Assembly (NCBI RefSeq): GCF_002994045.1
Contig: NZ_MQUC01000003.1
Span: 2,766,501-2,830,500, forward strand
Source of the DNA: Nonlabens agnitus
Lineage (GTDB): Bacteria; Bacteroidota; Bacteroidia; Flavobacteriales; Flavobacteriaceae
DNA: 64,000 bases
Direction of reading: 5' to 3'
Made by a program: the position numbers and the translations under genes. Positions 5,113 through 54,524 of this stretch are shown one piece after another. How positions within the stretch are numbered: position 1 is the first letter of the stretch; each line of letters begins with the position of its first letter. A model generated the notes under the pieces. The model was not told the origin of the DNA, searched no databases, and saw nothing but the letters and a program-made list of their open reading frames with translations.

Positions 5113-5680
5113 TTGGTGGTTTTTTATGGTAATCGCTTTCGCGAAAGCGAACTCATTACAAGCGCAATCTTCTCAAGTAAAAATCGAAAAGGAAGAACGC
5201 ATTGATCAATCTGACGTTCCAGCACCCATCATTGCTACCATTGCAGATCTAGCCAAAGACACTAACGTCAAATACTATAAAGAAACAGACGACGATCGAG
5301 TAAGCTTTGAAGGTAAATTCAAAAAAGAAGGTAACCGGTACAGTGCAGAATTCAATGTCACAGGAATACTGGAAGATGTAGAAGTTGAGGTGGATAAAAA
5401 ATCGTTGGATGAAAACCTACGTACTGCCATCACTACTAGGCTGGATAGTATTGCAAGTCGCTGGCGCATCGAGAAGATGCAAGAGCAATATTTGCCACAG
5501 TCAAGCATATCGCAGTTAAATCAAAATATCGATCAACGCACCTTTGACAATCTCGAGCTTATCGTAGCTTTTAAAACAGATGGAAAAATATACAGAAAGG
5601 AATTATTGTTTGACACTAACGGGTTTTTAATACAATCCAGAGACGTAAAAAGAATAGCTTATGACTTCCTACTTTTTTAG
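5102..5680 (+). CDS. Exported PepSY-like domain protein
   Basis: 192 aa from the ATG at 5102, overlapping the end of tag by 11 bases; another ATG lies one codon upstream at 5099. The signal peptide MKYSWWFFMVIAFAKANSLQAQ contains the dispersed palindrome, translated as AFAKA. The mature part has two similar alpha/beta units (APIIATIADLAKDTNVKYYKE... and later KTDGKIYRKELLFDTNG), as in the PepSY-like (PF11396-type) periplasmic proteins of Bacteroidota. Function is unknown. The next gene overlaps its end by 20 bases. Confidence 0.7.
   Translation: MKYSWWFFMVIAFAKANSLQAQSSQVKIEKEERIDQSDVPAPIIATIADLAKDTNVKYYKETDDDRVSFEGKFKKEGNRYSAEFNVTGILEDVEVEVDKKSLDENLRTAITTRLDSIASRWRIEKMQEQYLPQSSISQLNQNIDQRTFDNLELIVAFKTDGKIYRKELLFDTNGFLIQSRDVKRIAYDFLLF
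5133..5150. repeat. Short palindrome copy inside the PepSY-like gene
   Basis: Perfect 18-bp palindrome TCGCTTTCGCGAAAGCGA, read in frame as AFAKA at the end of the signal peptide. Confidence 0.9.
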
Positions 5681-6320
5681 GGTTCTTCTATTCTTGCTGC
5701 CTACGCTGGTCTTAGGTCAGGTGGCAGATCAAGTGGTCTTTCAGCCAGCGATCAAAGTCTCGTGGAACCCAGCTTCCAGATGGAGCTTTAACACAGCGGT
5801 AGAACAAAGAACGCAGATTAATGATGATGCCCAAGCTATTAGTATGCAGCTCACTCAATTTGGACAGTATGAAGTAGGTTTTTATTCCCTGATAGGAATA
5901 GGCGTGATGTATAGAGAATTATTTGATGACAACCTGCCTGAGGAAGTACGGTTCATGGGACAATATGTTTACACTAAAAAATACAATCAATTACAACTAG
6001 CTCATCGACTGCGCTGGGACCAGCGTTTGCGAGGTGATCGTTTGACACATCGCTGGCGTTATCGTCTTTCAGGATCTATACCTCTCAACGGTAATGACTT
6101 GAATCCGTCAGAATATTATGTGGTTTCCCATCTAGAAACCTTATTCATTGCGGAAGATGGTTTACGCCCTATCTATGAACAGCGCGTCGGTTTAGGAATA
6201 GGTAGGCAAATCGGGTCTAGCTACAAGTTACAACTCAACACACAGTATCGATGGCTGGATATAACAGCTGCGACGACAACATCTTTATTTTTGAATGTGG
6301 CTCTTTATGCCAGCCTATAG
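5661..6320 (+). CDS. DUF2490 outer-membrane beta-barrel-like protein
   Basis: 219 aa with signal peptide MTSYFFRVLLFLLPTLVLGQ. Alternating hydrophobic/polar strands with many aromatic and arginine residues (WSFNTAVEQRTQ, LAHRLRWDQRL, THRWRYRLSGSIPL) are typical of DUF2490 outer-membrane proteins. It is translationally coupled to the PepSY-like gene by a 20-base overlap and converges on aat with a 6-base overlap. No substrate can be inferred. Confidence 0.8.
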   Translation: MTSYFFRVLLFLLPTLVLGQVADQVVFQPAIKVSWNPASRWSFNTAVEQRTQINDDAQAISMQLTQFGQYEVGFYSLIGIGVMYRELFDDNLPEEVRFMGQYVYTKKYNQLQLAHRLRWDQRLRGDRLTHRWRYRLSGSIPLNGNDLNPSEYYVVSHLETLFIAEDGLRPIYEQRVGLGIGRQIGSSYKLQLNTQYRWLDITAATTTSLFLNVALYASL

Positions 6321-6959: not shown

Positions 6960-6999
6960 GGTTACTTAAATGTCTAAAACAGTGTGGTTAATAAAAAAA

Positions 7000-7492: not shown

Positions 7493-7494
7493 AG

Positions 7495-8346
7495 TTATGA
7501 TAATAAAATTTTCCAAGCATCGGCGATCTGGTTTTTAGCGATCAGTTCCTTTGCTTTCTTATGTTTATCTTTTGTGTTGAGGTGTGAAAGGTTTTCCGCT
7601 TTCGCGAAAGCGAGAACCTCATCATCCTCAGGTATTTCACTCAAATTTCCTAGTCTGCCCAGGTCATTGCCGGTAAGTACCTCGCTGTTTCTAGCGTGTT
7701 CTGGCAAGGCATCAACGCCTACGCCATGATTTCTGGTAGGTTTTTCTACTTCAAACATGGCATCTTTAGAACGGCAGTACCAGTTGCCGCCCATGCGCGC
7801 GACCGTATCGATCTTGAACGGGTCGATGCTATCGTTCTCGTCCAATATTTGGTCGTCAATGTGAATCATCACGACTTCACAAATAACGAGGCTTCCGGCG
7901 CCACCATTGTCTCCCAATTCTTTAATGTCAATGACTTTACACTCAAATTGAACGGGACTTTCTGCAACTCTAGGTGGTTTGACCAGTTCGCTTTTTACAG
8001 CAGTAAGACCAGACTTTACAAATTCATCAACGCCAGTAGCATACTCTGTACTGGCAAGCGACATTTGCTGTACCATGTTGTAATTGACCACACTAATCAC
8101 CACCTCGGCATTTTGCTGGACGTTGATGAGCGTATCCTTTACCGTTCCATCACGACCGCGGCGCACCGGTGAAAATACAAGTATAGGCGGTTTTGCGCTA
8201 AACACGTTAAAGAATGAAAATGGTGATAGATTCACCTTGCCATCATTATCAACCGTGCTCGCAAACGCAATAGGTCGTGGCTGTACGGCACCTACAAGGT
8301 GGCCATACAACTGCGGATTCTCGATATCTTCTGGTCTAATTTTCAT
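7495..8346 (-). CDS. Flavin reductase family protein
   Basis: 283 aa, started at the ATG at 8346 (MKIRPEDIENPQLYGHLVGAVQPRPIAFAS), which gives the usual family N-terminus. The FMN-binding split-barrel pattern is visible (PRPIAFASTVDNDGKVNLSPFSFFNVFSAKPP, then a VVSVVNY-type strand). Members reduce flavins with NAD(P)H or bind FMN; the substrate here is not known. The C-terminal helix carries a palindrome copy read as AFAKA at about residue 245. It probably forms an operon with DUF3127. Confidence 0.88.
   Translation of the reverse strand: MKIRPEDIENPQLYGHLVGAVQPRPIAFASTVDNDGKVNLSPFSFFNVFSAKPPILVFSPVRRGRDGTVKDTLINVQQNAEVVISVVNYNMVQQMSLASTEYATGVDEFVKSGLTAVKSELVKPPRVAESPVQFECKVIDIKELGDNGGAGSLVICEVVMIHIDDQILDENDSIDPFKIDTVARMGGNWYCRSKDAMFEVEKPTRNHGVGVDALPEHARNSEVLTGNDLGRLGNLSEIPEDDEVLAFAKAENLSHLNTKDKHKKAKELIAKNQIADAWKILLS
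7597..7612. repeat. Short palindrome copy inside the flavin reductase gene
   Basis: CGCTTTCGCGAAAGCG, read on the gene strand as AFAKA in VLAFAKAENL. Confidence 0.9.
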
Positions 8347-8520
8347 GCGGTTGCTGCAAGATTTCAAAGGTACAGATTCTGTAAGCTGTTTGCAATATCA
8401 ACTGCGATAGTTGCATGTACTTTTGAAGAGATTATCACGTTAATGGAATAGTTGTATTTTTAGTAGGGCATAGGCAGGCACAGCAGCTTGAGGCAGCCCT
8501 TAAATAGGATAGTTCACTTC

Positions 8521-11592: not shown

Positions 11593-11614
11593 GTTCGCTT
11601 TCGCGAAAGCGAAC
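11593..11614. repeat. Short palindrome copy between clpP and clpX
   Basis: Perfect 22-bp palindrome with half-site GTTCGCTTTCG. It lies in the 113-base spacer of the clpP-clpX transcript, where it would fold as an RNA hairpin without a T-run. Confidence 0.92.
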
Positions 11615-17183: not shown

Positions 17184-17948
17184 TTATTTTACGAAATTCT
17201 CAACGAGTCTGTTAAATTCATCAGGTTGCTCGGCATGTAACCAGTGTCCCGCATTAGGGATGGTGTGGAGTTCCGCTTTCGCGAAAGCATGATCAATAAC
17301 AGCCTTATCGCTATCCAGAATGTAACCAGACTTACCACCACGTACGAACATGGTTGGAATTTGAACGGGAATTTCAATAGGCTCATGGCTGCCTACCATA
17401 CTTTGGGCTTGAGACAACGCCGGTAAGTTGAAACGCCAGCCATAACTGGTCTTGTCTTTTCTGAAAAGGCTCTTGAGTAGAAACTGTCTGGTTCCTTTGT
17501 CGCTAATGGTGCGGCCTACTGCTGCATCTGCATCTTTACGAGAATTGACCGTAGTAAAATCGACAGATTCGAGCGCATGGATGATGTCGCTGTGGTGTGG
17601 ATCGTATGGTTTAGGTGCGATGTCTGCAATGATGAGTTTATCGATCAATTCTGGATACAATACGGCAGCGCGCATGGCGACCTTACCGCCCATACTGTGA
17701 CCTAAAAGAATGATGTTTTCAAGGTTGTGATGGTCGCAATACACTTTAAGATCTGCTGCCATCACATCATAGTTGTGTTCATCGCTATGAAAGCTGCGGC
17801 CGTGGTTGCGCTGGTCCAGTAGGTGAACCTCAAATCCAGATTCGCTCCATTGTGTACCTAGTGTTTTCCAATTGTCTGCCATTCCTAAAAACCCATGAAG
17901 GATGATAAATGGCTTGCCTTGTCCTAATATTATGCTGTGTAATATCAT
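17184..17948 (-). CDS. Alpha/beta-fold hydrolase (YbfF-like)
   Basis: 254 aa. The nucleophile elbow GHSMGG has Ser85; the oxyanion motif [10 protein letters not shown] is at about 18-27; the C-terminal His lies in [11 protein letters not shown]. The family includes esterases acting on small acyl esters; the substrate is unknown. A palindrome copy adds AFAKA just before the strand leading to the catalytic His. It overlaps pdxJ by 4 bases. Confidence 0.9.
17275..17288. repeat. Short palindrome copy inside the hydrolase gene
   Basis: GCTTTCGCGAAAGC, read on the gene strand as AFAKA at about residues 221-225. Confidence 0.88.
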
Positions 17949-20274: not shown

Positions 20275-20379
20275 ACAATAATTTGACGCTTCCTTTGTTT
20301 TAACATGAGTCACAATGGGCGGCGTTTACCTATGCTGCCTTGTGAGAATTGTTATATTTGCACGTTTGAAAAAAAACCA

Positions 20380-21078
20380 ATGCGGTTAGTACTATTATTG
20401 ATTGCTTTTTTTGTTTTCGCTTTCGCTAAAGCGCAGACCTACGAGTTAGGTGTATGGGCTGGTGGTTCAAACGTGATTGGTGATGTTGGGAGTACAAAAT
20501 ATGTAAATCCATCTGGGATAGCCATAGGTGGCGTGGCAAAATGGAATCGCAGTAATAGACATAGTTTTAGAGGTTCCTTAATTTACACCAGGCTTAATGG
20601 TGATGATAGCAAGAGTGATGATAGGTCTAGAGAATTGAGAGGCTTGGAATACGAGTACAGTATGTTGGAAGCCTCACTAGGTGTGGAATACACATTTTGG
20701 GAATGGGAACTGTATTCTGGAAAGAGACACATTACTCCCTATATGTATACAGGATTTTCAACCTATAGTTATGGAAGCCTGGCACTAAATGAGAATACCA
20801 ATAACAATCAACTAGAACGATACAGTAGAAGAATAGATTTTGCTATTCCATTTATCTTAGGTGTAAAGACAAATTTAACAGAGCATCTAATTCTAGCTGC
20901 AGAAATAGGAGCAAGATATACCTTTACAGATAACCTCGATGGCAGTAATCCAGATGAATCAAAGGATGAATTTGAAGAACTAAAATTCGGGAATTTAAAC
21001 AACAATGATTGGTATGTCTTTAGTGGAGTGACCATAACTTATACCTTTGGACGCAAACCATGTTATTGCAACTTTTAG
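20380..21078 (+). CDS. DUF6089 outer-membrane beta-barrel protein
   Basis: 232 aa from the ATG at 20380, which begins a good signal peptide (MRLVLLLIAFFVFAFAKAQ). The mature protein is strand-rich (YELGVWAGGSNVIGDVGS...). This family is commonly found just before uppS and bamA in Bacteroidota, as here, which hints at a role in envelope assembly. The signal-peptide end is the dispersed palindrome. A TATATTTG promoter-like box lies at 20353-20360. Confidence 0.82.
   Translation: MRLVLLLIAFFVFAFAKAQTYELGVWAGGSNVIGDVGSTKYVNPSGIAIGGVAKWNRSNRHSFRGSLIYTRLNGDDSKSDDRSRELRGLEYEYSMLEASLGVEYTFWEWELYSGKRHITPYMYTGFSTYSYGSLALNENTNNNQLERYSRRIDFAIPFILGVKTNLTEHLILAAEIGARYTFTDNLDGSNPDESKDEFEELKFGNLNNNDWYVFSGVTITYTFGRKPCYCNF
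20418..20433. repeat. Short palindrome copy in the DUF6089 signal peptide
   Basis: CGCTTTCGCTAAAGCG, one mismatch from the core, read as AFAKAQ at the predicted cleavage region. Confidence 0.85.
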
Positions 21079-24429: not shown

Positions 24430-25275
24430 ATGAGAATCAAGAATTACCTTTTACTGTCAATGATGGTTTTATGTTTCGCTTTCGCGAAAGCGCAAAGAGG
24501 CATAAGAGTTGGTTACGTTGATATGGAGTACATTTTAGAAAGCGTTCCAGAATACCAGAAAGCGTCAGAGCAATTAGAGCAGCGCATGCAAGGATGGAAG
24601 ACCGAAATCGAAAAGATGGAGTCTGAAATTGCCCAAATGGAAACCTCTCTCAAGAACGAACGCGTTTTGTTGACTAAGGAATTGATAGAGGAGCGTGAAG
24701 AAGAAATAGGCATCAAGCGACAAGCTCTGAATGATTACCAGCAAAAAAGATTTGGTGCTCAAGGTGATTTCATCAAGCAAAAACAACAGTTGATTCAACC
24801 CGTACAAGATCAGGTATTCAATGAGATGCAAAAGATAGGTGAGCAAAAGAAGTATGACATGATCCTTGAGCGATCAGAGACGACCATGCTTTACAGCGAT
24901 GACCGTCATGATTTGAGTGATGATGTATTAAGAGCCATAGGTCGTACTGGCAAGAAGGCAGATCGTGAAGAAAGAAATCAGACCAGGAACACTCCAGTTG
25001 AGGATGTCAAGGACGAGCCGTATATGTCAGTACAAGAAGCTGCAGATCGTCAGGAAAAAGTAGCTGCAAAAGAGGCGATCATTGACGAGAAGCAAGCCGC
25101 TAGAGCCGAAAAAATAAGATTTAGAGACAGTATAAAAGAAGCAAGAGCAAGAGAATATCAGGAACGTAGAGAAGCGAGTATCAAAGAGCGTCAACGTAGA
25201 AAAGATAGTATTCTAGCTGCTCGCAAGGCAGATAAAGAAAAGAAGGAAAATAACAATCCTCCAGACAATAAATAA
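24430..25275 (+). CDS. OmpH/Skp-family periplasmic chaperone with long charged tail
   Basis: 281 aa. The signal MRIKNYLLLSMMVLCFAFAKAQ contains the palindrome. The OmpH domain (RVGYVDMEYILESVPEYQKASEQLEQRM, then coiled coil and YDMILERSETTMLYSDDRHDLSDDVL) occupies about residues 25-175. A basic/acidic helical tail rich in RQEKVAAKEA and RERQ-type repeats extends to the end. It is probably a holdase for unfolded outer-membrane proteins delivered to BamA. Confidence 0.92.
   Translation: MRIKNYLLLSMMVLCFAFAKAQRGIRVGYVDMEYILESVPEYQKASEQLEQRMQGWKTEIEKMESEIAQMETSLKNERVLLTKELIEEREEEIGIKRQALNDYQQKRFGAQGDFIKQKQQLIQPVQDQVFNEMQKIGEQKKYDMILERSETTMLYSDDRHDLSDDVLRAIGRTGKKADREERNQTRNTPVEDVKDEPYMSVQEAADRQEKVAAKEAIIDEKQAARAEKIRFRDSIKEARAREYQERREASIKERQRRKDSILAARKADKEKKENNNPPDNK
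24477..24492. repeat. Short palindrome copy in the OmpH signal peptide
   Basis: CGCTTTCGCGAAAGCG, read as AFAKAQ at the signal-peptide end. Confidence 0.9.
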
Positions 25276-29903: not shown

Positions 29904-29925
29904 TTTCGCTTTCGCGAAAGCGAAA
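29904..29925. repeat. Short palindrome copy downstream of marC
   Basis: Perfect 22-bp palindrome with half-site TTTCGCTTTCG, between the tRNA-Leu terminator and the end of marC. Confidence 0.9.
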
Positions 29926-33197: not shown

Positions 33198-33238
33198 TTC
33201 GCTTTAGCGCCTGCCTGTCGGCAGACAGGAAAGCGAAC
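33198..33238. repeat. Long nested palindromic repeat, copy 2
   Basis: Inverted orientation relative to copy 1: left arm TTCGCTTTAGCG, inner palindrome CCTGCCTGTCGGCAGACAGG, right arm AAAGCGAAC. It lies between the convergent cysM and PfkB-kinase genes and could act as a bidirectional hairpin. Confidence 0.88.
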
Positions 33239-34189: not shown

Positions 34190-35355
34190 CAGGATAGCAG
34201 TCTTTTACCGTTCATGTATTCTCTCACGAGAATCTCTCCAGCAGCGCTCCAGGTGCAATATTTGATTCCTATCGCGGCTGTCGTCTGCGTATTGAAGTTT
34301 TCGTAATAGCCGTAATCTTCGGCGCTGTTGAGTTGTTTAATGTGAGCTAGGATTTCTTGGCTCTTGTTTTCATGCTGTCCGGCCAGTGCCATTCCATAAA
34401 AGCCGTTGACCATTTGCCAGGTGCCGCCATTATGGAATTCATAAGCATGGTTGCGGAATTCATACTTGCAATTGTCCGTCAATAATTCCCAATGCTTGTC
34501 GCCTTCCTGGATAGGTTCCCAAAAAGCTGGTAACAAGTTGAGCGGCAAGGTACAGCGCAGCTGTTCTGAGTAGGTAATGACGCTTTCGCGAAAGCGAACT
34601 GAACCCAATCCCAGTAACAAAGCAATGGAATTTCCCAAGGCGTCAAACATGGTCTGATAACCCGACGGATTGATGGAAGCCATCCAATAAGGTTTGTCTT
34701 CCATTGATTTATAAGCCCTAGGATGAAACGGATGCTCAAAATTTCCTGCGGTATAGTTGCCTTCCAGTATCGTAGTGATCGTACTAATTTGTTCTTCCAA
34801 GGCACTTGAAGGTTCCAAAATATGGACGCAGCGTAACGCCCAAAGGCGTAATACCTGATCGTAGAAGATGTGACCTTCCGTAATATATTCATCTGCCCAG
34901 TTTCCTGATCTGGGAACGTAAATCAAATGGTTGTTGTTGAATTCCCAAGCCTTGAGTAGCTGGAGTCCTTTATGAATTTTGGGAAGCATTTTTTTAAAAA
35001 AGTCCTTTTCACCAGTATGTGATTCATAATTGCAGACTCCTATAATAAACCAGGAAATGGTATCAACACGGCCGGCAAGACCGCCAAAGCTTACTTCACT
35101 AGCTCCATCTTCTTTAAAGTGGACGTTTGAAGGTACGTGACCCAATTCATGCTGGTGGCTGGCTAGGGTTTCTAGCGTAGACTTAAAGGTCGCGATCAAC
35201 GAGTCGTCACCATCCAGCAATGCGGCAAGTCCACAAATAACGCCGTCTCTAGCCCAGATGCGCTTGTAGTTGGAAATATCTGAAGCGCTGGCGAGAAAAC
35301 CGCGATCTGATCGTGCAGCGGCCAAAAGACTTGATGGATCTTGAGTGATTTCCAT
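34189..35355 (-). CDS. GH100-like invertase (sucrose hydrolase)
   Basis: 388 aa with an (alpha/alpha)6-barrel pattern. YKRIWARDGVICGLAALLDGDD, GGLAGRVDTISWFIIGV, and RSGNWADEYITEGHIFYDQV resemble alkaline/neutral invertases of GH100; related sequences are sometimes named amylo-alpha-1,6-glucosidase. No signal peptide, so it acts in the cytoplasm on imported sugar. A palindrome copy is read as RFRES at about residue 254. Sucrose as substrate is inferred from the transporter and kinase beside it. Confidence 0.82.
   Translation of the reverse strand: MEITQDPSSLLAAARSDRGFLASASDISNYKRIWARDGVICGLAALLDGDDSLIATFKSTLETLASHQHELGHVPSNVHFKEDGASEVSFGGLAGRVDTISWFIIGVCNYESHTGEKDFFKKMLPKIHKGLQLLKAWEFNNNHLIYVPRSGNWADEYITEGHIFYDQVLRLWALRCVHILEPSSALEEQISTITTILEGNYTAGNFEHPFHPRAYKSMEDKPYWMASINPSGYQTMFDALGNSIALLLGLGSVRFRESVITYSEQLRCTLPLNLLPAFWEPIQEGDKHWELLTDNCKYEFRNHAYEFHNGGTWQMVNGFYGMALAGQHENKSQEILAHIKQLNSAEDYGYYENFNTQTTAAIGIKYCTWSAAGEILVREYMNGKRLLS
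34581..34596. repeat. Short palindrome copy inside the GH100 gene
   Basis: CGCTTTCGCGAAAGCG, read on the gene strand as RFRES. Confidence 0.9.
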
Positions 35356-37176: not shown

Positions 37177-39810
37177 TTAGAATCGGTATCCTAATCCTAA
37201 TGAAATGGATCTTCCAGGTACTGGACGTACTCTAATGAAATTGGTTTGACCTTCAGTAATTGCGCCTTCTTCAGACTCTGTGATCCCTAAGGTGTCAAAG
37301 ATGTTGTTGGCAGATAGGTTTGCCGTCAAGTTGTTTGCGATCTGGAAGTTCACGTTACCACTAACAATTAAGAATGCAGGTAATACCAACTGATTGCTGT
37401 CTTGTGCAAAAGCCTTAGACTGTCCTATAAAACTTAGACCTACATTATTTTGTGACTCAGCACCAAAGCTGTAGGATGGCAAGAAGTTATAGATAAAGTC
37501 TGGCTGTCTTCTAGGAGTGTTTCCTGCATTGTCACCAGAGTCAATTTCGGCATTGGTGTAGGTTACACCACCACGCAGGTTGAGGTTGTCAAATCTGTAG
37601 GTACCTTCTAGTTCAATACCTATGGACTTATAATCGTTCTCGATAATTTGCTGTGAGGTTGCTTCAAAACCACCTTCTTCTGTTGTTTTTGCATAGAAAG
37701 CAGTTGCGTACAATGCACCGTTTTCAAATCCTTGTTTGTAACCTACTTCTGCTTGGTTGATAAAGTCCAATGCGTTGATCGCATCACCATCTAGATAATT
37801 GAGTCCCGCAAAGAGTATTCTGTCAGCTTTCGCGGAAGCGCCTCTAGAATATCTTCCAAACACAGCTTGAGACTCTGACAACTTCAAGTTAGCACCTAAG
37901 GAATAAGAGAAATAGTCATAGTCATAATCTACAGTGGTAGGGTTTGCCACGTCAATAGCAGAAACAGACTGCTCGATAAACGAAATTTCACCGTCATTGT
38001 TCACGTCATAAGTGGTTTGAACTGGTCCTGCAAAAGTTCCATCTACACGACCTTTATCAAAACGAGCACTTGCATTGAAGTTGAGATTTTCATTGGCCTC
38101 GATGGAAACGTCCACATAAGGAGCACTCACATTATAATCAGTGTCGTAGTTGCGCTGGCAACAGTTACCGAATAGGGTAGCGCCATAGCCAATAAGTCCG
38201 TTTTCACTGCGAGCGTCGCCATTAGCCGCTGTAGCGTTGATCAAACGAGCACGGTCACCAGATGCTTCCAGCAAATAGGAGTTCCACAACCAGGACATGC
38301 TTACATTTTGATAGGATTTGAAGTATCCCAAGGTGATATCGATATTGTCAAATGATTTGGACAACCTCGCATCATTCATAAAGTTGTTGAAGTTATTGAG
38401 CTGTGTATCAAACAATACCGTTGGAGCAAGAATGGTGTTGCCAGGAACTGGGCTGCCGTCGTTTGCAAAAGTCAAGTTTGCATAGTCACGTGAGGTAGCA
38501 AAATCACCGGCAAGAAAATCGTTGGCCGTCAAGACGCTCGCTGGAAATGGTGAGTTGAATCCACCTTTATTGAAGGAAAATCTGCCGCGATTATCAAATC
38601 TCCAACCGTCTACCAGATCAAAGGAAGCCTCAACACCTACTGAGCTTGAAATAGGATTCATACCGTTTGCCACATCAGATCTTCTCAATTCTCCACTGTC
38701 GCCTAGACCTACATTTTGACGTAAGAATGGTGTGTGTAATGTTTGACCATTAGCATCAAATCCTGCGATGTCATTAAAATCAGGATCGGCGTTTGTTCCA
38801 GAAACAGCAATAGGGTTAGGCAAGTAAGCAATAGCCTTGTCGTTTAGGTGTTTAGCATATAGTCTTACGTATCCTTTTTCAAATTCTTTAGTGATATTAA
38901 ACTTAAACTGACCGCCATTGTTAGCCGTATAACCAGCATCTCGTATGCCTTCACCCACACGGTAGAAACCACCCATGTGAAAATACAGTCCGTCGGCGAT
39001 AGGAGCGCCGTACTCAAAATCAGTTCTAAAACTATTGTAATCTGCTCCAAAGGTTGTCCCTAGAGATCCACCTTCTACACGACCTGTTTTGCTAATCAAG
39101 TTGATGATGGCACCAGGAGAATTTGAAGAAAGTGTTGATGCAGATCCACCACGTATGGCTTCAATTCTAGCGATGTTGGAATCGTATCTGGTAAAAATAT
39201 CTGCAGTTGCAAAAGACATATCCCCAAAAAGCAGCACCGGTAAACCATCTTCCTGAATCTGTACATACTTTGATCCACCAGAAGAAACCGGCACACCACG
39301 AACAGCAATGTTGGAATTACCTTCTCCACCAGAGGATTCTGCGCGTATTCCTGGAATGGTTCTGAAGATCTCTGCTGTTGTTCTAGGTGCAGATTGTTCT
39401 ATCACTGTAGGCGTTAGGGTAGTGATCGATACAGATGATTCTAATTTTGACTTTGGGTTTGCCACACCAGTAACGACGATGGCGTCTAGGGAAGCAGCAT
39501 CTTCGGCAAGTTCAAAGTTGAGCACACGGTCAACACCTATAATGCTTAAGGACTTTTCTACTTTGGTGTAACCTATGGAGCTGGCAACAACAATGTAATC
39601 GCCGTCTTCTACATTAGTAATGGTGTAGTTCCCATCAAAATCTGTAATAGCTCCTTTTGTAGTGTTTTGTAGTACAACATTGACATTAAGTAATGGCGTA
39701 CCGCTCGCGTCTGTGATTTTCCCAGTGATCTTGGACTGTGAGAAACCTACTAGACAAACAAAGAATGCCAGTAGAAAGGCAATCTTATGAATTGAAGTAT
39801 TTGTTTTCAT
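37177..39810 (-). CDS. TonB-dependent receptor of the sugar locus
   Basis: 877 aa. Signal peptide ending CLVGFSQ, a carboxypeptidase-like regulatory domain (about residues 27-110, ITGKITDASGTPLLNVNVVLQ), a plug domain (TTLTPTVIEQSAPRTTAEIFRTIPGIRAESSGG...) and a 22-strand barrel ending in LGYRF. No SusD partner is encoded nearby, so it is a classical TonB receptor, probably for sucrose or a related oligosaccharide. Two LacI-type operators lie upstream. A degenerate palindrome (SAKA) is at about residue 657. Confidence 0.92.
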   Translation of the reverse strand: MKTNTSIHKIAFLLAFFVCLVGFSQSKITGKITDASGTPLLNVNVVLQNTTKGAITDFDGNYTITNVEDGDYIVVASSIGYTKVEKSLSIIGVDRVLNFELAEDAASLDAIVVTGVANPKSKLESSVSITTLTPTVIEQSAPRTTAEIFRTIPGIRAESSGGEGNSNIAVRGVPVSSGGSKYVQIQEDGLPVLLFGDMSFATADIFTRYDSNIARIEAIRGGSASTLSSNSPGAIINLISKTGRVEGGSLGTTFGADYNSFRTDFEYGAPIADGLYFHMGGFYRVGEGIRDAGYTANNGGQFKFNITKEFEKGYVRLYAKHLNDKAIAYLPNPIAVSGTNADPDFNDIAGFDANGQTLHTPFLRQNVGLGDSGELRRSDVANGMNPISSSVGVEASFDLVDGWRFDNRGRFSFNKGGFNSPFPASVLTANDFLAGDFATSRDYANLTFANDGSPVPGNTILAPTVLFDTQLNNFNNFMNDARLSKSFDNIDITLGYFKSYQNVSMSWLWNSYLLEASGDRARLINATAANGDARSENGLIGYGATLFGNCCQRNYDTDYNVSAPYVDVSIEANENLNFNASARFDKGRVDGTFAGPVQTTYDVNNDGEISFIEQSVSAIDVANPTTVDYDYDYFSYSLGANLKLSESQAVFGRYSRGASAKADRILFAGLNYLDGDAINALDFINQAEVGYKQGFENGALYATAFYAKTTEEGGFEATSQQIIENDYKSIGIELEGTYRFDNLNLRGGVTYTNAEIDSGDNAGNTPRRQPDFIYNFLPSYSFGAESQNNVGLSFIGQSKAFAQDSNQLVLPAFLIVSGNVNFQIANNLTANLSANNIFDTLGITESEEGAITEGQTNFIRVRPVPGRSISLGLGYRF
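37826..37839. repeat. Degenerate short palindrome inside the TonB receptor gene
   Basis: GCTTTCGCGGAAGC, one mismatch from the core, read as SAKA. Confidence 0.6.
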
Positions 39811-41005: not shown

Positions 41006-41045
41006 GTTCGCTTTCCTTTCTGCCGACTGGCAAACGCTAAAGCGC
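41006..41045. repeat. Long nested palindromic repeat, copy 3
   Basis: Left arm GTTCGCTTTC, degenerate inner palindrome CTTTCTGCCGACTGGCAAACG, right arm CTAAAGCGC. Directly after lacI, between convergent genes. The most decayed of the long copies. Confidence 0.78.
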
Positions 41046-41466: not shown

Positions 41467-42252
41467 TCAGTCTATTTTTTCACTCAAGTATTTCCAGTAT
41501 CGTTTTGGGACGTGTTGCAGGTGCAGTTTCATGTTTTTGCGCGATTCTATGTTGACGCTCTTGAAATATTGATTCCACAGATCACGGTAGTTGTTTTCGC
41601 TTTCGCGAAAGCGAGATTCCTGACCAGCTAACTTATTGGTTACGCCTCTTTTTGCTATAGGATCGTCAAATTTTATGGTGATCTCTTCTACTTTTTCCAA
41701 GTCATACGAGATCCCAAAATCTCTCTTCAAATCGTAAATGATCCATTTTTGATCTGCATATCTATTTTTAAAATGGCTGCTTATGAGCGGCAACACATTA
41801 AAATCTGGCTCGCAATTAGCATAATACACGTCGCCGTCAATCAGGTGAAAGCGTATGAAGGCTTCCATGCGGTGCTTCTCGCGGCCTACCATTTTGGCAG
41901 CTTGCGAAATTTTCAAAACGGTGGAGTTCCCGTAATCTCCAGACGGTGCTTTGTTATTCTCAAAGGTGGTCCTGCAATACTCAAAAAGCGTATTCTCGAT
42001 CCCAATGATCTCACTTAAAAAGGCGCGATAGAGATCGTAAAAATCGCTTTTGCTGGTGAGTTCCTGCAGTTTTTTTAAAACACGTTCTGCCTTGTCGTGT
42101 TCTGTAATTACGGTATGTGCCTCACCAAACAGCTGATTCTGCACCTGCGATTCTGGCTGGATGATGGGGCTTTTGATCTTGTGGGCATAAATGGTAAAAA
42201 CCGTGGTCAAAAAACCATTGAAAGAGCCATCATAAGTCAAGACATTGTTCAT
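41467..42252 (-). CDS. TIGR03915-family DNA repair-associated protein
   Basis: 261 aa. The pattern LTYDGSFNGFLTTVFTIY at the start and AAKMVGREKHRMEAFIRFHLIDGDVYYANCEPDFNVLPLISSHFKNRYADQKWIIYD in the middle match the TIGR03915/DUF4130 family, normally encoded next to the TIGR03916 radical SAM protein. The reaction is not known. It overlaps that gene by 4 bases. A palindrome copy is read as RFRES at about residue 214. Confidence 0.88.
   Translation of the reverse strand: MNNVLTYDGSFNGFLTTVFTIYAHKIKSPIIQPESQVQNQLFGEAHTVITEHDKAERVLKKLQELTSKSDFYDLYRAFLSEIIGIENTLFEYCRTTFENNKAPSGDYGNSTVLKISQAAKMVGREKHRMEAFIRFHLIDGDVYYANCEPDFNVLPLISSHFKNRYADQKWIIYDLKRDFGISYDLEKVEEITIKFDDPIAKRGVTNKLAGQESRFRESENNYRDLWNQYFKSVNIESRKNMKLHLQHVPKRYWKYLSEKID
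41598..41613. repeat. Short palindrome copy inside the TIGR03915 gene
   Basis: CGCTTTCGCGAAAGCG, read on the gene strand as RFRES. Confidence 0.9.
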
Positions 42253-43633: not shown

Positions 43634-46600
43634 TCATTCTCTAACCTTACCTGGTTTGCGACCAGCACCAGGCTGATGAATGTTTGCATTCTCATGCGGC
43701 AGTTCCAAGCGACGGTACCCATTGCCGTTTCCCATGCGGCGATCGCGCAGGCTTGCCTGTTTATCCAGCCGCTGCATGGTTTGCGGATTATCCTCTGCAT
43801 ACCGTGGATCTTGTATGTAATCCATTTTTCTCATGTCCTCAACCTCTATGGAACAGAAGTCAAACTCTTCAACTACTTTGCCATATACTGCATAAATACC
43901 GCTGCCGCGAAAGCTGATTTTTGCCGCCACAGGTGGAAACATTACGGTATCGAAAAAATGACCGTCTCGATCCAGAAAGGTCCCAAACTGCATGCGCTTG
44001 CCTTTGGCCGTATGTGTCGTTTTGATGTTTACCACATAGCCGTAAATCAAGATTTTATTGTTGAGATATCTCGATAGGTCCTTGCACGTATGATTGTTGC
44101 GCGGCTCATCTACCAATAAGTCAAAATGGGAACACAAGGGAAACCCTAGAAGTTCTATCTGCTCAAAAGCCAGTTCTTGTTGTGTGGTCGTCAATTTAGG
44201 AATATGTGCTTGTCTAAACTTGGGCACGAACAGCTGTTTTTGCAACGCCTTTTTAGGTGTTTTATCCATCTTGAAATGTGCTTGCCACAAGAGTTCATAT
44301 CGATCTATTCCTGTAAACCTAAAGGCATCAATGCGTATCAATAAACTCATCTGGTCTATGCTTATCGCGACTCTATTGATAAAATCATCCAGCGATGTAA
44401 ATTCTCCATCTCGCCATCTGGATGCTACAATGGACAACATTGCTTTTTTCTCCAGTTCATTGATGTAGCTGTAACCCAAGTATATCGAGGTCCCTTTGAT
44501 CACATTTGCCACATCACTGTTATTGATGCAAGGTGCTTCAATAGTGGCGCCGCACATTCTTGCCTCGTGTACGTAGAGTTCTGGTTTATAGAAACCACCA
44601 CCATTGTTGAGTGTTGCGGTCATGTACTCCAGCGGGAAATATCGTTTTAAGTACAAACTCTGGTAGCTTTCCACGGCGTATGAGGCAGAGTGACCTTTCG
44701 CGAAAGCGTACCCAGCAAAACTCTTGATCTGGTTCCATATCTCTTGGGATTCTGCTGGATCGTGACCTTCTTTGCGACAGTTTTTATAAAACTTTTCTTC
44801 CACCTTTTGGAACTCTTCTCGAGAACGGTATTTACCGCTCATACCGCGTCGCAGCACGTCTGCCTCGCCCAGGTCGAGCTTTGCATAATGGTGAGCCACC
44901 TTGATCACGTCTTCTTGATAGACCATGATACCATAGGTTTCTGGCATGATACTTTGTAGGATGGGATGTGCCTCGGCACGCTTTTCTGGATAGCGCGTGC
45001 GCAGGATAAACTCGCGCATCATACCACTTTGCGCCACGCCAGGCCTGATGACAGAGCTGGCTGCGACCAGTCCTATGTAATCATTGGTGGCCAGTTTACT
45101 CAAAAGCATGCGCATCGCTGGTGACTCGATGTAAAAACAACCTATGCATTTTGCGCGTGAGATCATGGCGTTGATGCTCTCGTCCTTCATAAACTTTTTC
45201 ACGTCACGACGCACATCTGCCAGTACAGCATCTGGCTGATTGTTCTTAATGATCTGGATGGCGTCCCTTATTTTTCCCAGACCGCGCTGTGCCAGGATGT
45301 CAAACTTATGGATGCCGGCATCCTCTGCAATATGCATGTCAAACTGTACGGTAGGATAACCTTTGGGCGGCAGGTTGGTGGCACTGTAATAGTGAATGGG
45401 ACGCTCTGTAATGAGAATACCACCAGCGTGAATGCTGGTATAGTTGGGCATGTCCATCAAATATTTGGAATACCTGATCACCAACTGGTGCATGTGATCC
45501 AGTAGCGCAAAATTCCAACTTCCAGAGGTGAGCATGTCAATATCTGCTCGTGGCAACCCAAATACTTTACCCAATTCTCGCAGTACCGCGCGATATTGAA
45601 AAGTGACATAGGTTCCCTGCAACGCGACATTAGCTCGCTTCCCGAATTCCTCAAAGATGAATCGGGTCATGTCCTCACGATCGTCCCATGAAAAATCAAG
45701 GTCAAAATCTGGTGGGCTGGTACGGTAATCATTGATAAACCGCTCAAAATATAGATCCAGTTCAATGGGATCGACCTCAGTGATTTGCAATAGGTAGGCA
45801 AGGATGCTGTTAGCGCCACTACCACGGCCTACATAAAAATAACCTTGCTCACGAGCATATTGACAAATGCGCCAGTTGATCAGGAAATAGGCAACAAATC
45901 CTTTTTTTACCACAGTGGTGATTTCCTTTTCAATGCGTGCGTCAATATCTGGTGTTGATGCGCCGTACCGCAATGGGATTCCTTCCTGAGCCAATTGCTG
46001 GAGCAGTTTGAAATCTGCTATTGAGTTTTCTTCTGGTGTACCGTCGCGGTGGTAGGTCTTCTGGTTGGCATTGAGTTGCGACTTGTCGTAATCAAAACTT
46101 ATGCTGCACTGGTCCAGCAGTTTTTTGGTGTTTTCAATGATGAATGGATATTCGCTAAACAGGGCTTCCAGTTCATCAACAGGAATCATTTTATCGGCTT
46201 CAGTGCCTTGTTGTTGTGTGGGCAGCTGGCTCAAGAGAATGTTCAGGTCGATGCAGCGCAGCAATCGGTGTGCGTTAAAATCCTTCTTGTTTCTAAACGT
46301 AACAGGCTGCAGGATCACCAATTTATCCTTGTACTTGAGATAATCGGTAAAGGGTAGTTTACGTAGGCTTGTTATGGAGACTCCTATGAATTCGCTTTCG
46401 CGAAAGCGAGTTTTCCTCAACGCTACCACTTTCTCCAGTGGGTAAATGACAAAACAATTTTCAAATGCAGGCGCTACCTCTGGCAGGGCTGTCTTCCCGT
46501 GAAGGTGCGGTGACAAAAAATCATTGAGTTCTTGAAAGCCAGCGTTGTTTTTTGCAAGTCCTACATACAACTGCTGGTGATCATTACGAAAGTCGATGCC

Positions 46601-46780: not shown

Positions 46781-46882
46781 TTTTAAAAACAAGCTTATCT
46801 ACAATGGACAAATGGCTTAAATATTTTACTTCTAGGCAGTTCTCGACTACGCTCGAGCAAGCATTTGCTTACGCTCTACTCT

Positions 46883-48477: not shown

Positions 48478-49305
48478 TTAAAACAATACAAATTGATCTC
48501 CAGCCACGAGTCGCTCCTCGCGTATGGTAAATGGTTTTTCTTCCACATACTTCAAACGCTCATACAAACTGCGGTCATAATCCTTAAAGAGTTTCTCGCC
48601 TATAGGCTTTAAGAGCTCCAATCCATTTTGTTCTGGATTCTTGATCTTTTGCGAGATAGGGTAGGCATTGAATCCTTTGTCATCAAATGGCTTCATGATA
48701 CTTGTCAATCTTGCCATGGAAAGATCCTTATCCAGCCATTCTTCTTCTTGTTTTCTAGTCAATACCACTGGTGCACGATGGTGACCTATACGTTGTGTAA
48801 GCCTGTTAGCCGCCGTGGTCACTATGGCAACGGTATGATGCTGCTCACCAGTTAAGGGATGTTGCCATACATCATAGATACCAGCTAGTGCAAACGGCCC
48901 ACGATCTTTATTGGGATAAACCAGATGTGGTTTGTTGAGTTTTTCCAGTTTAGGACCTTCAATGAAAGCATCTACAAGTACAAGGCATCGTTGTGATTTG
49001 ATGGCGTGTCTAAACATAGGCTTCTGAAAGATGCCTGCCGGTCCATCATAATTAGGGTCGTTGTTAGGGTTGTAACTTCCTTCTGCCCTGGCATTGATCA
49101 TGTAGGTTTGCTTGTGTGCCCAGTGTGGCGTAAAACCTAAGGTAAACATCTGTATATGGTTGGGTCTTGCACTGGTGATCACCGGTATTTTATTGCCGGC
49201 ACTTATGTTCACATTTTCTGATAGTTGTTCCGCTTTCGCGAAAGCGGCATTAAAACGCTGCTCCAACAATGCTGCTGGTGTTATAACTGATGCTCTTCCA
49301 CACAT
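48478..49305 (-). CDS. SOS response-associated peptidase (SRAP/HMCES/YedK family)
   Basis: 275 aa. The catalytic Cys2 is exposed after Met removal (MCGRASV) and forms a thiazolidine crosslink with abasic sites in single-stranded DNA. The active-site Asn lies in YMINARAE, Glu in VDAFIEG (usual GFYEW changed to AFIEG) and His in GHHRAPVVL. It is divergent from the S24 repressor, and the control region has five palindromic operators. A palindrome copy encodes AFAKA at about residue 21. Confidence 0.93.
   Translation of the reverse strand: MCGRASVITPAALLEQRFNAAFAKAEQLSENVNISAGNKIPVITSARPNHIQMFTLGFTPHWAHKQTYMINARAEGSYNPNNDPNYDGPAGIFQKPMFRHAIKSQRCLVLVDAFIEGPKLEKLNKPHLVYPNKDRGPFALAGIYDVWQHPLTGEQHHTVAIVTTAANRLTQRIGHHRAPVVLTRKQEEEWLDKDLSMARLTSIMKPFDDKGFNAYPISQKIKNPEQNGLELLKPIGEKLFKDYDRSLYERLKYVEEKPFTIREERLVAGDQFVLF
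49230..49247. repeat. Short palindrome copy inside the SRAP gene
   Basis: Perfect 18-bp palindrome CCGCTTTCGCGAAAGCGG, read on the gene strand as AFAKA. Confidence 0.9.
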
Positions 49306-51638: not shown

Positions 51639-52301
51639 ATGAGTTTTCATAAAATGTTTTCTTTCTTAAGAGAGCTACAAAAAAATAACAATAAGGAATG
51701 GATGGATGCACATCGCGACACCTATGAAGAAGTGCGCGACTGGTATAAATCTTGGCTCAATGAGCTGGATGCAGAACTAGGCAAAATTGACAAGGACTAT
51801 CATTCTACCGAAGGCAAAAGAGCCATCAACCGTATCAACAACAACCTACTTTATCATCCCAATAAACCTATCTACAAAGACCATTTTGGCGCTGGACTGG
51901 ATCTATCAGAAAATGGCAAACAAGGTGATTTTTACATTCATCTAGGGACCAACGGCTCCTTTATCGCTGGCGGTTTTTACAATCCCAAAAAGGAAACTCT
52001 TGACTCCATACGCGACGCTATCGACTATAATGGTGCCGAATTCAAAAAGATCATGGCTAAAAAGTCTTTCAAAGAAACCTTTGGTGAAATGATTGAAGAT
52101 GAGAATAAACTCAAGACCTCGCCCAAAGGCTATTCACAAGATCATGAACACATAGATCTACTACGACGTAAAAGTTTTGCAGTAAAACATGACGTGACCC
52201 AAAAAGAAGTCATGCAGGATGATTTCAAGGAAAAATGTGTAGAGATATACAAGGAAATGTTGCCCTTTAGAAAATATTTGAATAAGGCCGTGACAGTTTA
52301 A
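51639..52301 (+). CDS. DUF2461 domain protein
   Basis: 220 aa, cytoplasmic. The family pattern is clear: FSFLRELQKNNNKEWMDAHRDTYEEVRDWY, KRAINRINNNLLYHPNKPIYKDHFGAGLD, DFYIHLGTNGSFIAGGFYNP and PKGYSQDHEHIDLLRRKSFAVKH. The biochemical role of DUF2461 is unknown. It converges on the next gene with a 4-base overlap. Confidence 0.92.
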   Translation: MSFHKMFSFLRELQKNNNKEWMDAHRDTYEEVRDWYKSWLNELDAELGKIDKDYHSTEGKRAINRINNNLLYHPNKPIYKDHFGAGLDLSENGKQGDFYIHLGTNGSFIAGGFYNPKKETLDSIRDAIDYNGAEFKKIMAKKSFKETFGEMIEDENKLKTSPKGYSQDHEHIDLLRRKSFAVKHDVTQKEVMQDDFKEKCVEIYKEMLPFRKYLNKAVTV

Positions 52302-53275
52302 TCTTTTGGCTCGTACACTTTAAGAACCGCACCCATTCCGTAATTGTCATGACCAGATCGTACCAGCTTGCTGTTAGGATTGTAAGTCAGGTCAAAAAGC
52401 TGCCAGGTTTTGTTGTTGAAAAAAATACGACGTACCCAGGTTTGCTTACCATCAATTTCATCGGTAAACGGTAAGAGTGGCCTATAGGTCGTGGATACTT
52501 TTTCCATACCGCGGCGGGTTTTGATCTCTCTATATTTTTTGGCGTCTATCAATCTGCCGTCTGGATAAGTGTATCCCAACACTTGAATGGCGGCAAAAAT
52601 TCCGTTTTCAGGAATCTGAATTCCCAGTTCCTCTACATCCAGTTCATGGATCTCGTCGGTTTCTTGAGTGATTACAAAAGTTTGCGCAGGATAATTGGAT
52701 TGTCTCGTGGGCGATCCATCGCCGTTGACGTTGTAGAATTGCACCCTAAACATAGTAGAAAATGCTCGCAACTTTCCCTTTTTACTGGCCTGACTTTCTT
52801 CAAGAACAACCGGTATTTGTAGGGTTTTGATTAATGTGCGGCGTCCATCCTGTCGTTCAAATTTTACCGCAATTTCAGATTCTACGGTAGGCAGCCAGCA
52901 ATCAAAATAATTGTCATGAACGATCGCATCAATCTCTTCTTCCTTAAATTTTCCTTCCAGTTTTGCGAGTACCACGATCGCATCCATCTGCGCTGTTGAT
53001 GGATTCATGTACAGCTTATCAACCACATTTACTGTAGCAACCTTCAAGTCTTCATAACCTATGGATGATACTGTTAGAGAATCTACGTCTGGATATCGCT
53101 TTCGCGAAAGCGTAAACACTCCATCGCCATCTGCAAAGGTGCCTTTCCCATTACCAAAGCTGATGGTCGCAAAAGAAACTGGCTCCTTTGAAATCGAGTC
53201 CAAGAGTGTGATCTTTTGTGCGCTCGAGAGAACCGCAGTGCATAGTAGGCTAAGAAGTAATAAGTTCTTCATCAA
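52298..53275 (-). CDS. Carboxypeptidase-like regulatory domain protein
   Basis: 325 aa. Signal peptide MMKNLLLLSLLCTAVLSSAQ, then a CarboxypepD_reg-like domain (ITLLDSISKEPVSFATISFGNGKGTFADGDGVFTL...) and a C-terminal domain of unknown type. A palindrome copy is read as LSRKR in that domain at about residue 55. It overlaps the start of the downstream-reading neighbour waaA by 26 bases, so both are on one transcript. Confidence 0.82.
   Translation of the reverse strand: MMKNLLLLSLLCTAVLSSAQKITLLDSISKEPVSFATISFGNGKGTFADGDGVFTLSRKRYPDVDSLTVSSIGYEDLKVATVNVVDKLYMNPSTAQMDAIVVLAKLEGKFKEEEIDAIVHDNYFDCWLPTVESEIAVKFERQDGRRTLIKTLQIPVVLEESQASKKGKLRAFSTMFRVQFYNVNGDGSPTRQSNYPAQTFVITQETDEIHELDVEELGIQIPENGIFAAIQVLGYTYPDGRLIDAKKYREIKTRRGMEKVSTTYRPLLPFTDEIDGKQTWVRRIFFNNKTWQLFDLTYNPNSKLVRSGHDNYGMGAVLKVYEPKD
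53097..53112. repeat. Short palindrome copy in the CarboxypepD_reg-like gene
   Basis: CGCTTTCGCGAAAGCG, read on the gene strand in the third frame as LSRKR. Confidence 0.88.
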
Positions 53276-54524
53276 TGGTTTTTAATTGTTCGAGCACGTG
53301 ATTTGTCGCGCCAGTATTGCTATTGACCCAATGCCCACAAACCATGCCTGTTTTCTCCCTTAAAAAATCATCCTCAAATAGTTTGTTGACTGTATCTGCA
53401 AAATCCTGCGCGTTAGATATGGAGAAAAGTCCACCTAGATCTTCCAGTTTTCCAGCTTCAGGATACTTGTCATAATTCTTACCTATCACCACAGGAACGC
53501 CAAAGGTGGCTGCCTCTAAAATATTATGCAGGCCAGAATTACCCATGGCGCCACCTACATAGGCGACATCTGCATAGCTGTATATTTTTGTGAGTAATCC
53601 TATGGTGTCTATGACAAGAACGCTCTTGTTGGAAGTCAGTAACTTCTCGTGAATTTTGGTTTCCGTCCATCGCAAGGTGTCAAAGGGCAGACTATTTTCT
53701 AACTCTGTAACCTTTTCTTCATGCACCTCATGCGGTGCGATAATCACTTTGATCTCTTTTGTCTGGTCATTCCCTACAAGCCATTTTTTCATCACCTCAA
53801 TATCCTTGGGCCAGCTGCTGCCTACCACAAGACAAGGCTTGCCATTGATGAGCTTTTCCAATGCCGGTATACGATTATCTCGTTCAATAAGCTGGCTGGC
53901 GCGATCAAATCTCGTGTCGCCACTTACACTGGCATTTTCAAAACCCAGCTTTTTGAGCTCTCTTAAGGACGATTCATTTTGCAGGAAAAAATGGTCAAAG
54001 GCTTCTAAAGAGCTGGTCATCCACGAGCCGTACCATTTATGGAAACTCATCTTTTCTCTAAAGATTCCGCTTACCAGGATGGTGGGAACCTTATGTGACT
54101 TGAGCGCATTCAAATAATTGGGCCAGAACTCATATTTGACCATTATGGCCAGCGATGGCTCGACCAGACCCATGAACTTTGAAACGTTTGAGACTGCATC
54201 AATAGGTAGGTAACAAACCACATCAGCAAGTTGGGTGTTCTTTTTATTCTCGTATCCAGATGGTGAGAAAAAGGTGAGCACCACCTGATATTTCTTTCGG
54301 TTCAATTTCTCTAAGATCGGGACCACCTGTTCATATTCACCTAGAGAGGCCACGTGCACCCAGATTTTTGGTATCGTGCTCTTTACTTTGGTGTCCAGAA
54401 TGTCCCAGGATCGTTCCCGACCTTGTGATCCCAGCTTCATTTTCTTGTTAAAGAAACCGGCGATGGGAAGTGCCGCTTTCGCGAAAGCGGAACCCGTATC
54501 ATACAAACTTTTTAAAATAGGCAT
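53250..54524 (-). CDS. waaA: 3-deoxy-D-manno-octulosonic acid (Kdo) transferase
   Basis: 424 aa from the ATG at 54524 (an ATG six codons earlier is possible). It attaches Kdo to lipid A at the inner membrane. The GT30 pattern is visible: WVHVASLGEYEQVVPIL (catalytic Glu), YLPIDAVSNVSKFM, EFWPNYLNALKSHKVPTILVSGIFREK, and IAPHEVHEEKVTEL. VAYVGGAMGNSGLHNILEAATFGVPVVIGKNYDKYPEA is the donor-sugar site. A palindrome copy (AFAKA) lies at residues 12-17, in the usual N-terminal anchor. Confidence 0.94.
   Translation of the reverse strand: MPILKSLYDTGSAFAKAALPIAGFFNKKMKLGSQGRERSWDILDTKVKSTIPKIWVHVASLGEYEQVVPILEKLNRKKYQVVLTFFSPSGYENKKNTQLADVVCYLPIDAVSNVSKFMGLVEPSLAIMVKYEFWPNYLNALKSHKVPTILVSGIFREKMSFHKWYGSWMTSSLEAFDHFFLQNESSLRELKKLGFENASVSGDTRFDRASQLIERDNRIPALEKLINGKPCLVVGSSWPKDIEVMKKWLVGNDQTKEIKVIIAPHEVHEEKVTELENSLPFDTLRWTETKIHEKLLTSNKSVLVIDTIGLLTKIYSYADVAYVGGAMGNSGLHNILEAATFGVPVVIGKNYDKYPEAGKLEDLGGLFSISNAQDFADTVNKLFEDDFLREKTGMVCGHWVNSNTGATNHVLEQLKTIDEELITS
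54473..54490. repeat. Short palindrome copy inside waaA
   Basis: Perfect 18-bp palindrome CCGCTTTCGCGAAAGCGG, read on the gene strand as AFAKA. Confidence 0.9.

Follow-up and report, generated by a model that had tools for sequence, protein, structure and literature searches.

Among the dispersed repeats of bacterial genomes, the highly iterated palindromes (HIPs) of cyanobacteria are over-represented far beyond chance, and Elhai (2015, PMC4390886) describes them as sequences of 5–8 bp with at least 75% G+C and generally 1000–2000 copies per Mb. One of them, HIP1 (GCGATCGC), has one-off copies that differ mostly at the outer positions and hosts a small repeat, SDR5, inserted precisely inside it (PMC4390886). 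Here, we describe a 16-bp palindrome, CGCTTTCGCGAAAGCG, in a window of 64,000 nucleotides from Nonlabens agnitus (contig NZ_MQUC01000003.1, positions 2,766,501 to 2,830,500; "the window" denotes this whole stretch). The palindrome resembles HIP1 in its over-representation, in its outer-position variants and in hosting a small repeat at a fixed point inside it, whereas it differs from HIPs in its length of 16 bp with long biased arms, its G+C content of 62.5%, its density of 210–255 copies per Mb and the phylum to which its hosts belong. In the open-licence literature of PubMed Central, no paper matched CTTTCGCGAAAG or CTGCCTGCCGGCAGGC, and those matching TTTCGCGAAA concern other subjects by title; none was found there on palindromes of Nonlabens and Dokdonia or on iterated flavobacterial palindromes, and by title no paper on repeats in Dokdonia and Nonlabens genomes deals with such repeats. 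The behaviour of the palindrome is that of a DNA site and not of coding sequence, and its copies arise by base substitution.

Distribution and conservation of the palindrome

The 3.216-Mb genome of N. agnitus (G000) contains 676 exact copies (210 per Mb) and 819 copies with at most one mismatch (255 per Mb), against no match of the reversed sequence, and a copy is met every 3–4 kb (about 3.4–3.5 kb) along the chromosome. The window itself holds 17 matches with up to three mismatches (11 exact, two with one, two with two and two with three), compared with a mean of 0.15 over 100 dinucleotide shuffles, in agreement with the first-pass annotation of the window, which had put the chance expectation far below one. 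All of the 16 places that it had listed were recovered, with an offset of 0–3 bases, and the 17th match, at 43900, has three mismatches. A sample of 1.264 Mb (six 200-kb stretches and the window, 40% of the genome) was analysed with mechanical gene predictions throughout, and it yielded 276 exact, 59 one-mismatch, 20 two-mismatch and 17 three-mismatch copies, at 0.23–0.32 per kb in each of the seven stretches. This spectrum reflects recognition that is sharp over the inner 14 bp; in 34 of the 59 one-mismatch copies, the change is at the outermost positions.

Copies with at most two mismatches are evenly spaced. Only 10 of their 348 gaps are shorter than 800 bp, where 72 would be expected at random, and the gaps have a coefficient of variation (CV) of 0.55, a gamma shape of 3.4 and a maximum of 11.8 kb. 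Such even spacing needs a cause, since uneven tolerance along the genome would raise the CV above 1. The CV is 0.48–0.53 in the genomes G007, G020 and G274, and 0.72 in the sparser G258. Short gaps are scarce even among the exact copies listed, the smallest being 768, 1652 and 2492 bp in G000, G016 and G002, respectively.

The gene context is largely indifferent. Altogether 352 of the 355 copies could be placed, 246 in coding sequence, 105 between genes and one straddling the two, which amounts to a threefold excess between genes given that 9.4% of the bases lie outside predicted genes. The intergenic copies (64 in 66.1 kb between co-directional, 25 in 26.9 kb between divergent and 16 in 18.2 kb between convergent genes) are of similar density in the three classes, and therefore show no preference for promoters or terminators. 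All three reading frames occur among the coding copies, as AFAKA (145), LSRK (58) and RFRES (43). The start of genes is favoured, with 50 of 246 copies in the first tenth, and there the peptide AFAKAQ would fit as the end of a signal peptide. In the window, the statement that 14 of the 16 copies lie inside genes with the frame intact was borne out, those at 11596 and 29907 being intergenic.

The element is wider than its core. Over 335 copies, depletion of C marks the 5′ arm (1–17% per position from −16 to −1, with a background of 20.6%) and depletion of G the 3′ arm. The information content peaks at −15, −12/−11, −9 and −5 to −1. Intergenic copies show the stronger depletion, and it has faded by about −30; with its arms, the element spans about 46 bp. 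The bias recurs, less uniformly, in the Dokdonia-type set (where, for instance, C is at 0.25–0.27 at two positions) and in those of N. tegetincola (11 sites), G274 and further Nonlabens, and it is weak in G258 (8 sites) and in viral contigs. The symmetric flanks claimed at first are present in the first flanking pair (complementary in 56%, compared with 45% by chance, z 5.5) but not in pairs 2–15. Beyond that first pair, each arm varies on its own, without covariation, and the arms therefore look like contacts and not like a stem.

The origin of the copies can be followed in the DnaE-type gene at 43634–46792, for which 21 Nonlabens rows (the window and 20 fetched among 22 relatives) and 15 rows from other genera were compared. 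One site, encoding RFRES, reads CGC TTT CGC GAA AGC exactly in 18 of the 21 Nonlabens rows, the remaining three having one mismatch, a lost site and an unalignable stretch, respectively, while all of the 15 other-genus rows carry different residues at the same length. The first-pass annotation had proposed a mobile insert tolerated in genes, and had named the same residues in distant genera as the sign of ordinary coding sequence; at this site neither is seen, because the 15 rows align without a gap and differ in their residues. At a second site in the gene, the peptide YAFAKGHSASY is identical in 14 of the 15 other-genus rows, and there the near-universal residues do recur in distant genera, but the motif codons (at most two mismatches) occur in 11 of the 21 Nonlabens rows and in none of the 15 others; G258 and G274 also use them, with two mismatches. 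Further aligned pairs show gap-free substitution at palindrome sites; a number of distant pairs, whose alignments contain gaps, cannot decide between insert and substitution. Empty and filled sites differing by the length of the element, as expected of repetitive extragenic palindromes or miniature inverted-repeat transposable elements, were not found for the 16-mer. What remains of the mobile-element idea is a hairpin of 20–21 bp that lands in the palindrome, also in frame inside genes, as described below.

Once formed, the sites are strictly kept. The comparison of G000 with G007 (94.7% identity over 354,643 columns) covers 90 exact sites, of which 88 are identical, and the divergence is 0.14% in the motif and 3.6% in the 20 bp on either side; in reverse, of 93 exact sites in G007, 88 are identical, three have one change and two are gapped in G000. 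Between G000 and G020 (79.8% identity), 40 of 46 exact sites are identical, five have one change and one has three, with a divergence of 1.1% in the motif and 14.6% in the flanks, and the reverse comparison of 45 sites gives 40 identical, two with one change and three gapped. Part of the gapped sites are hairpin-filled in G000. At four-fold codon positions, 1 of 98 differs between G000 and G020 in the motif, compared with 10417 of 19217 (54%) outside it. Shared with G000 are 39 of 47 sites in 20-kb stretches of other genus members, 10 of 14 in named Nonlabens contigs and 2 of 12 in Dokdonia-type contigs, and 0 of 16 G000 sites are present in outgroups. Turnover within the genus affects about half of the sites, and some have been kept for its age. 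This conservation points to selection on the sites. Gene conversion between copies could instead keep them alike, but it would not account for the even spacing.

The palindrome is dense in few genera. All 23 genomes of the genus that were searched, G000 included, contain 180–737 exact copies each, whereas 91 of 95 relatives outside the genus have none and the other four 1–4. Among 397 genomes of the family (237 genera), the inner 14-mer was matched in 80, namely four of the genus (578–762 copies), G258 (408), G274 (857) and 74 others (1–19), and it is thus dense in 2 of 236 other genera. In a scan of named genomes, 67 of the 80 stretches listed (of at least 111) belong to Nonlabens, Dokdonia or the genus member BBFL7. 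Neither G038 nor G313 of the genus g17 has a copy of the inner 14-mer, and G038 groups with G258 and G274 in a tree of the DnaE-type protein, in which the three motif-rich genera do not form one clade. The palindrome system may have been either gained twice or lost in g17. In 18 stretches of 18–20 kb from other genera, no palindrome of at least 12 bp is present three times, and a dialect candidate in G212, GTAAAACGTTTTAC, was dropped with its four copies genome-wide.

The sparse copies in motif-poor genera are often clustered. A cluster in G404 (L293) lies among genes for RND efflux, a heavy-metal P-type ATPase and CusB, and the stretch of G155 (L311) with copies 933 bp apart encodes, judging the translations by eye, an RND efflux protein and a TolC-like protein with the signal peptide ...VSAFAKAQ. 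Such efflux-gene clusters look like transferred islands, those of L293 and L311 probably from Nonlabens- or Dokdonia-type donors, and the palindrome seems to be a marker of donor DNA from these genera. Palindrome pairs spaced by 933 bp also occur in G169, G283 and G146.

Phages carry the palindrome as well. It was found in 41 stretches of viral contigs, some of them GC-rich, chance-like matches, and the density in these contigs is biased because they were selected for holding at least one copy. Copies are spaced by 3–5 kb in L142, which encodes portal, capsid and tape-measure proteins, and in L117, which encodes an integrase. In pairs of viral contigs at 65–70% identity (L126/L144, L116/L132, L143/L149 and L126/L141), sites are shared nonetheless, part of them with one or two mismatches, which is less easily explained by the choice of contigs. 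The phages P12024S and P12024L, recorded from the host Persicivirga (the phage names now read Nonlabens) and presumably lytic, contain no palindrome within three mismatches in 71 kb. Two regions of the chromosomes are also poor in it. In G002 (C1:131677-225871), 94 kb are without an exact copy, and the 20 kb read there encode a non-ribosomal peptide synthetase (NRPS) with condensation and AMP-binding domains; in G000 (C4:316001-332000, L308), 16 kb with an RHS-repeat protein of 1566 aa contain one variant copy. The NRPS and RHS regions may be acquired islands. The RHS-repeat protein adjoins a protein of 1813 aa without a Pfam match.

A protein dimer acting along the whole chromosome is suggested by the even spacing, the indifference to gene context, the sharp core of 14–16 bp with long, independent arms, and the presence of the palindrome in phage contigs together with its absence from two phages and, with one exception, from two island-like stretches. 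We consider, at close to an even chance, that a dimeric, sequence-specific protein binds the palindrome as duplex DNA and works chromosome-wide, in nucleoid organisation or DNA maintenance. A site for a nucleoid or replication protein, one of the ideas of the first-pass annotation, has the most support among the kinds of explanation, but no such protein was found. If each stretch of a few kilobases needs about one site, selection would fill long gaps while ignoring extra close copies and the identity of the host gene. Resident phage genomes would be under the same pressure, and fresh islands and phages outside the chromosome would not.

Several observations weigh against such a protein. No binding protein was identified in the present analysis, and a site of recombination control would fit almost as well. 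Exact copies alone are less even, with a CV of 0.73 in the sample, 0.89 over 83 listed places at 14–448 kb of G000, 0.82 in G016 and as much as 1.84 in G002, owing to long empty stretches such as the 94-kb gap. The motif-bearing genera are not one clade in the DnaE-type tree, where two changes are needed. Of the sites of G000, 20-kb stretches from other members of the genus share only 44 of 82, and Dokdonia-type contigs 2 of 16. The two P12024 phages, from a relative of Nonlabens, do without the palindrome.

Candidate readers and rival explanations

Sites of the parS, Noc and SlmA type are likewise palindromes of 14–16 bp, as expected of a dimer, whereas the present palindrome has hundreds of evenly spread copies. 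A ParB or Noc site is not supported, in that an extra ParB paralogue is not general in motif genomes and there is no match to parS. A single ParB_N match was found in 8 of 10 motif genomes; the other two, the genus members G014 and G019, have a second ParB_N protein, of 616 aa, and a similar second one is present in G042, which lacks the motif. Canonical parS (GTTTCACGTGAAAC) is separate from the palindrome, with two occurrences in the G000 sample and none in the 200-kb block holding the ParB gene.

The rival that survives best, possible though clearly less probable than a chromosome-wide binding protein, is a Chi-like palindromic site, which would be read by AddAB from either side and switch the enzyme from degradation to recombination. 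Sites of about one per 3.5 kb resemble the density of Chi in E. coli, and Chi sites, too, are kept in phage-like DNA. The palindrome differs from them in being symmetric and 14–16 bp long; to our knowledge, the known Chi sites are 5–8 nt and not palindromes, which counts against this rival. All of the 14 genomes searched for it encode an AddB-like protein, and RecC was found in none of 25. Viral contigs conserve the palindrome, and the palindrome-free phages P12024S and P12024L have annotated ERF and YqaJ recombination genes. From what is known in E. coli, the G/T-rich, C-poor arm 5′ of the site on each strand might be where a recombinase would load. A tree of AddB puts motif-bearing rows on one side (82/84), with partial rows of 762–777 residues. 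However, Nonlabens AddB is 36.6% and 37.3% identical to that of the other motif-rich genera, compared with 38.7% and 37.4% to that of the motif-free g17, and since it is thus no closer to the former, the grouping may be long-branch attraction. Nonlabens AddB (L312–L325, partial) evolves fast, with 48–66% identity to G000 within the genus, compared with 70–81% for the DnaE-type protein.

A DNA uptake tag, which the first-pass annotation had also raised, is kept as an unlikely alternative. A competence receptor would prefer DNA bearing the palindrome, and copies would accumulate by transformation and selection, as with the DNA uptake sequences and uptake signal sequences (USS), which are likewise numerous, group-specific and placed in permissive peptides. 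USS are flanked by T-rich segments that resemble the arms of the palindrome. The genus-level distribution, the many copies, the permissive peptides such as signal-peptide-like ends and the rarity in two island-like regions would all fit, whereas known uptake sequences are neither palindromic nor conserved in phages as this palindrome is, and its near-host spacing in phage contigs, with conservation at 65–70% identity, speaks against a tag.

No more probable than the tag is a HIP-type origin, in which a DNA methyltransferase and mismatch repair would drive a palindrome that itself has no function. Of the published precedents that we found, HIP1 is the closest, and the precisely inserted small repeat and the outer-position variants recur there (PMC4390886). 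In the G000 sample outside the 14-mer, the inner 10-mer occurs 17 times (1.4 expected) and the 12-mer 13 times (0.1 expected), near-variants included. However, recognition spans 14–16 bp, and outside the motif CGCG is found at 0.85-fold and TCGCGA at 1.2-fold in the G000 sample and 1.5-fold in G007. Of the methyltransferases, two families were searched, and neither PF00145 (13 of 24 genomes) nor PF01555 (12 of 24) is common to motif genomes; G007 (680 copies) and G009 (427) match neither. The palindrome, while similar in how it works, is therefore not filed as a HIP, failing in density and G+C content and being accompanied by neither tested methyltransferase family.

It is still less probable that a hairpin in RNA or single-stranded DNA is what counts. 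The 16-mer folds on itself, and many split forms retain the outer stem around the inner hairpin, but covariation of the arms stops at the first pair, only 1 of 20 two-mismatch copies is still palindromic and the copies between genes do not favour gene ends. That the 16-mer itself is a mobile insert is hardly credible, since its dispersed and often in-frame copies are matched by gap-free substitution in relatives, which refutes the idea for the alignable cases.

Returning to a protein that binds the duplex, one may tentatively go further and picture an address system of a few genera of marine flavobacteria, in which the protein reads sites of about 46 bp every 3.4 kb or so, temperate phages have adopted the sites and a 21-bp hairpin exploits the cutting or opening of them. 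If so, HIP1 with SDR5 and the Nonlabens palindrome would represent the same general phenomenon, arrived at independently. From hundreds of sites kept so strictly and spaced so evenly, a process can be deduced that reaches every few kilobases of the chromosome, and the palindrome is a ready bait for finding its agent. The HIP question also gains a second independent system, with the sharper features of a long footprint, even spacing, conservation in phages and exact empty sites.

A mobile hairpin inside the palindrome

A scan of 1.28 Mb for split palindromes, with intact ones masked and at most one mismatch allowed, gave 30, of which 21 have a gap of exactly 20 bp (7) or 21 bp (14). The insert is a hairpin, CCTGCCTGCCGG(T)CAGGCAGG or a variant, flanked by CGCTTTCGCG and AAAGCG, or the reverse complement. 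As with small dispersed repeats, exact filled and empty sites are found in close relatives. The site at 2500k 92375 is filled in G000 and empty in G007, and that at 2500k 23911 is filled in both and empty in G020; at 2500k 31151, G007 is empty and the filled copy of G000 has decayed. No target duplication was seen at the insertions.

The hairpin and the palindrome go together. In 1.264 Mb of G000, 19 of 21 strong hairpins are at an intact or partial palindrome, as are all four in G007. Seventeen stretches of other genus members (340 kb) contain no strong hairpin, 20 stretches from other genera (398 kb) contain one, away from the palindrome, and the named contigs (839 kb) one, at a palindrome in Dokdonia L062. 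The 100 kb of G274 contain four: two at palindromes, where the split is displaced outwards by two bases (CGCT/TTCGCGAAAGCG), and a further two within apparent decayed palindrome halves. All six well-formed insertions in genes are 21 bp long and in frame (e.g., AFLPDRQAGAKA), and the 17 between genes comprise nine of 21 bp and eight of 19–20 bp (6:0 versus 9:8, Fisher p 0.058); one 20-bp insertion with two mismatches, called coding, is an exception. Filled sites stand clear of intact ones, at a median distance (24 sites) of 1994 bp, compared with 909 bp for random places and 2330 bp for intact neighbours.

Insertion takes place at either edge of the central CGCG, where loop and stem would meet if the single strand folded back, and this suggests that something may cut or open the site at that border. 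Y1/HUH transposases were sought with a regular expression among 1137 predicted genes (40% of the genome); the four matches are weak and none is convincing. The hairpin of 20–21 bp would be a separate selfish mobile element and, if so, among the smallest mobile elements known. A second type of hairpin (CTTCGAC..GCTCAG) is also found in palindromes, at 1500k 181347 and 160319 of G000 and near 307 of Dokdonia L052, once with a CCTGCC hairpin nested inside.

In the window, five such sites add to the places first listed. Intergenic hairpins of 20 bp split the palindrome at 238..273 (CGCTTT, 20 bp, CGCGAAAGCG) and 63529..63564, and palindromes with one mismatch at 33200..33235, with convergent genes on either side, and 41009..41044, which is also filled in G007 and unsplit in the aligned stretch of G020. 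A decayed palindrome with a decayed hairpin inside is located at 55769..55803, directly after a gene ending at 55759.

Copies of the palindrome in the window

Two of the 11 intact copies are intergenic, at 29907..29922 and at 11596..11611, the latter recurring at the same site in the Dokdonia contig L042 with diverged flanks. The others lie in genes: at 5134..5149 (gene 5036–5680, plus strand, IAFAKAN near the N terminus), 7597..7612 (7495–8367, minus, LAFAKAE), 24477..24492 (24430–25275, plus, FAFAKAQ at residue 16), 34581..34596 (34189–35355, minus, RFRESVI), 41598..41613 (41467–42252, minus, RFRESEN), 49231..49246 (48478–49305, minus, AAFAKAE at residue 20), 53097..53112 (52298–53275, minus, TLSRKRY) and 54474..54489 (53250–54542, minus, SAFAKAA at residue 18), and at 46393..46408 in the DnaE-type gene (minus), as the RFRESEF site described above. 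The same gene contains, at 44693..44708, the two-mismatch copy with the conserved AFAKG in motif codons.

The remaining variants comprise copies with one mismatch at 17274..17289 (gene 17184–17948, minus) and 20418..20433 (20305–21078, plus, FAFAKAQ, signal-peptide-like), one with two mismatches at 37825..37840 in a TonB-receptor gene (37177–39810, minus) and a partial palindrome with three at 27226..27241 in a mutS-type gene (26826–29444). An Rfam scan of the window gave two tRNAs and nothing else. Four genes (20305–21078, 24430–25275, 48478–49305 and 53250–54542) have AFAKA followed by Q, E or A within their first 16–38 residues, resembling the end of a signal peptide.

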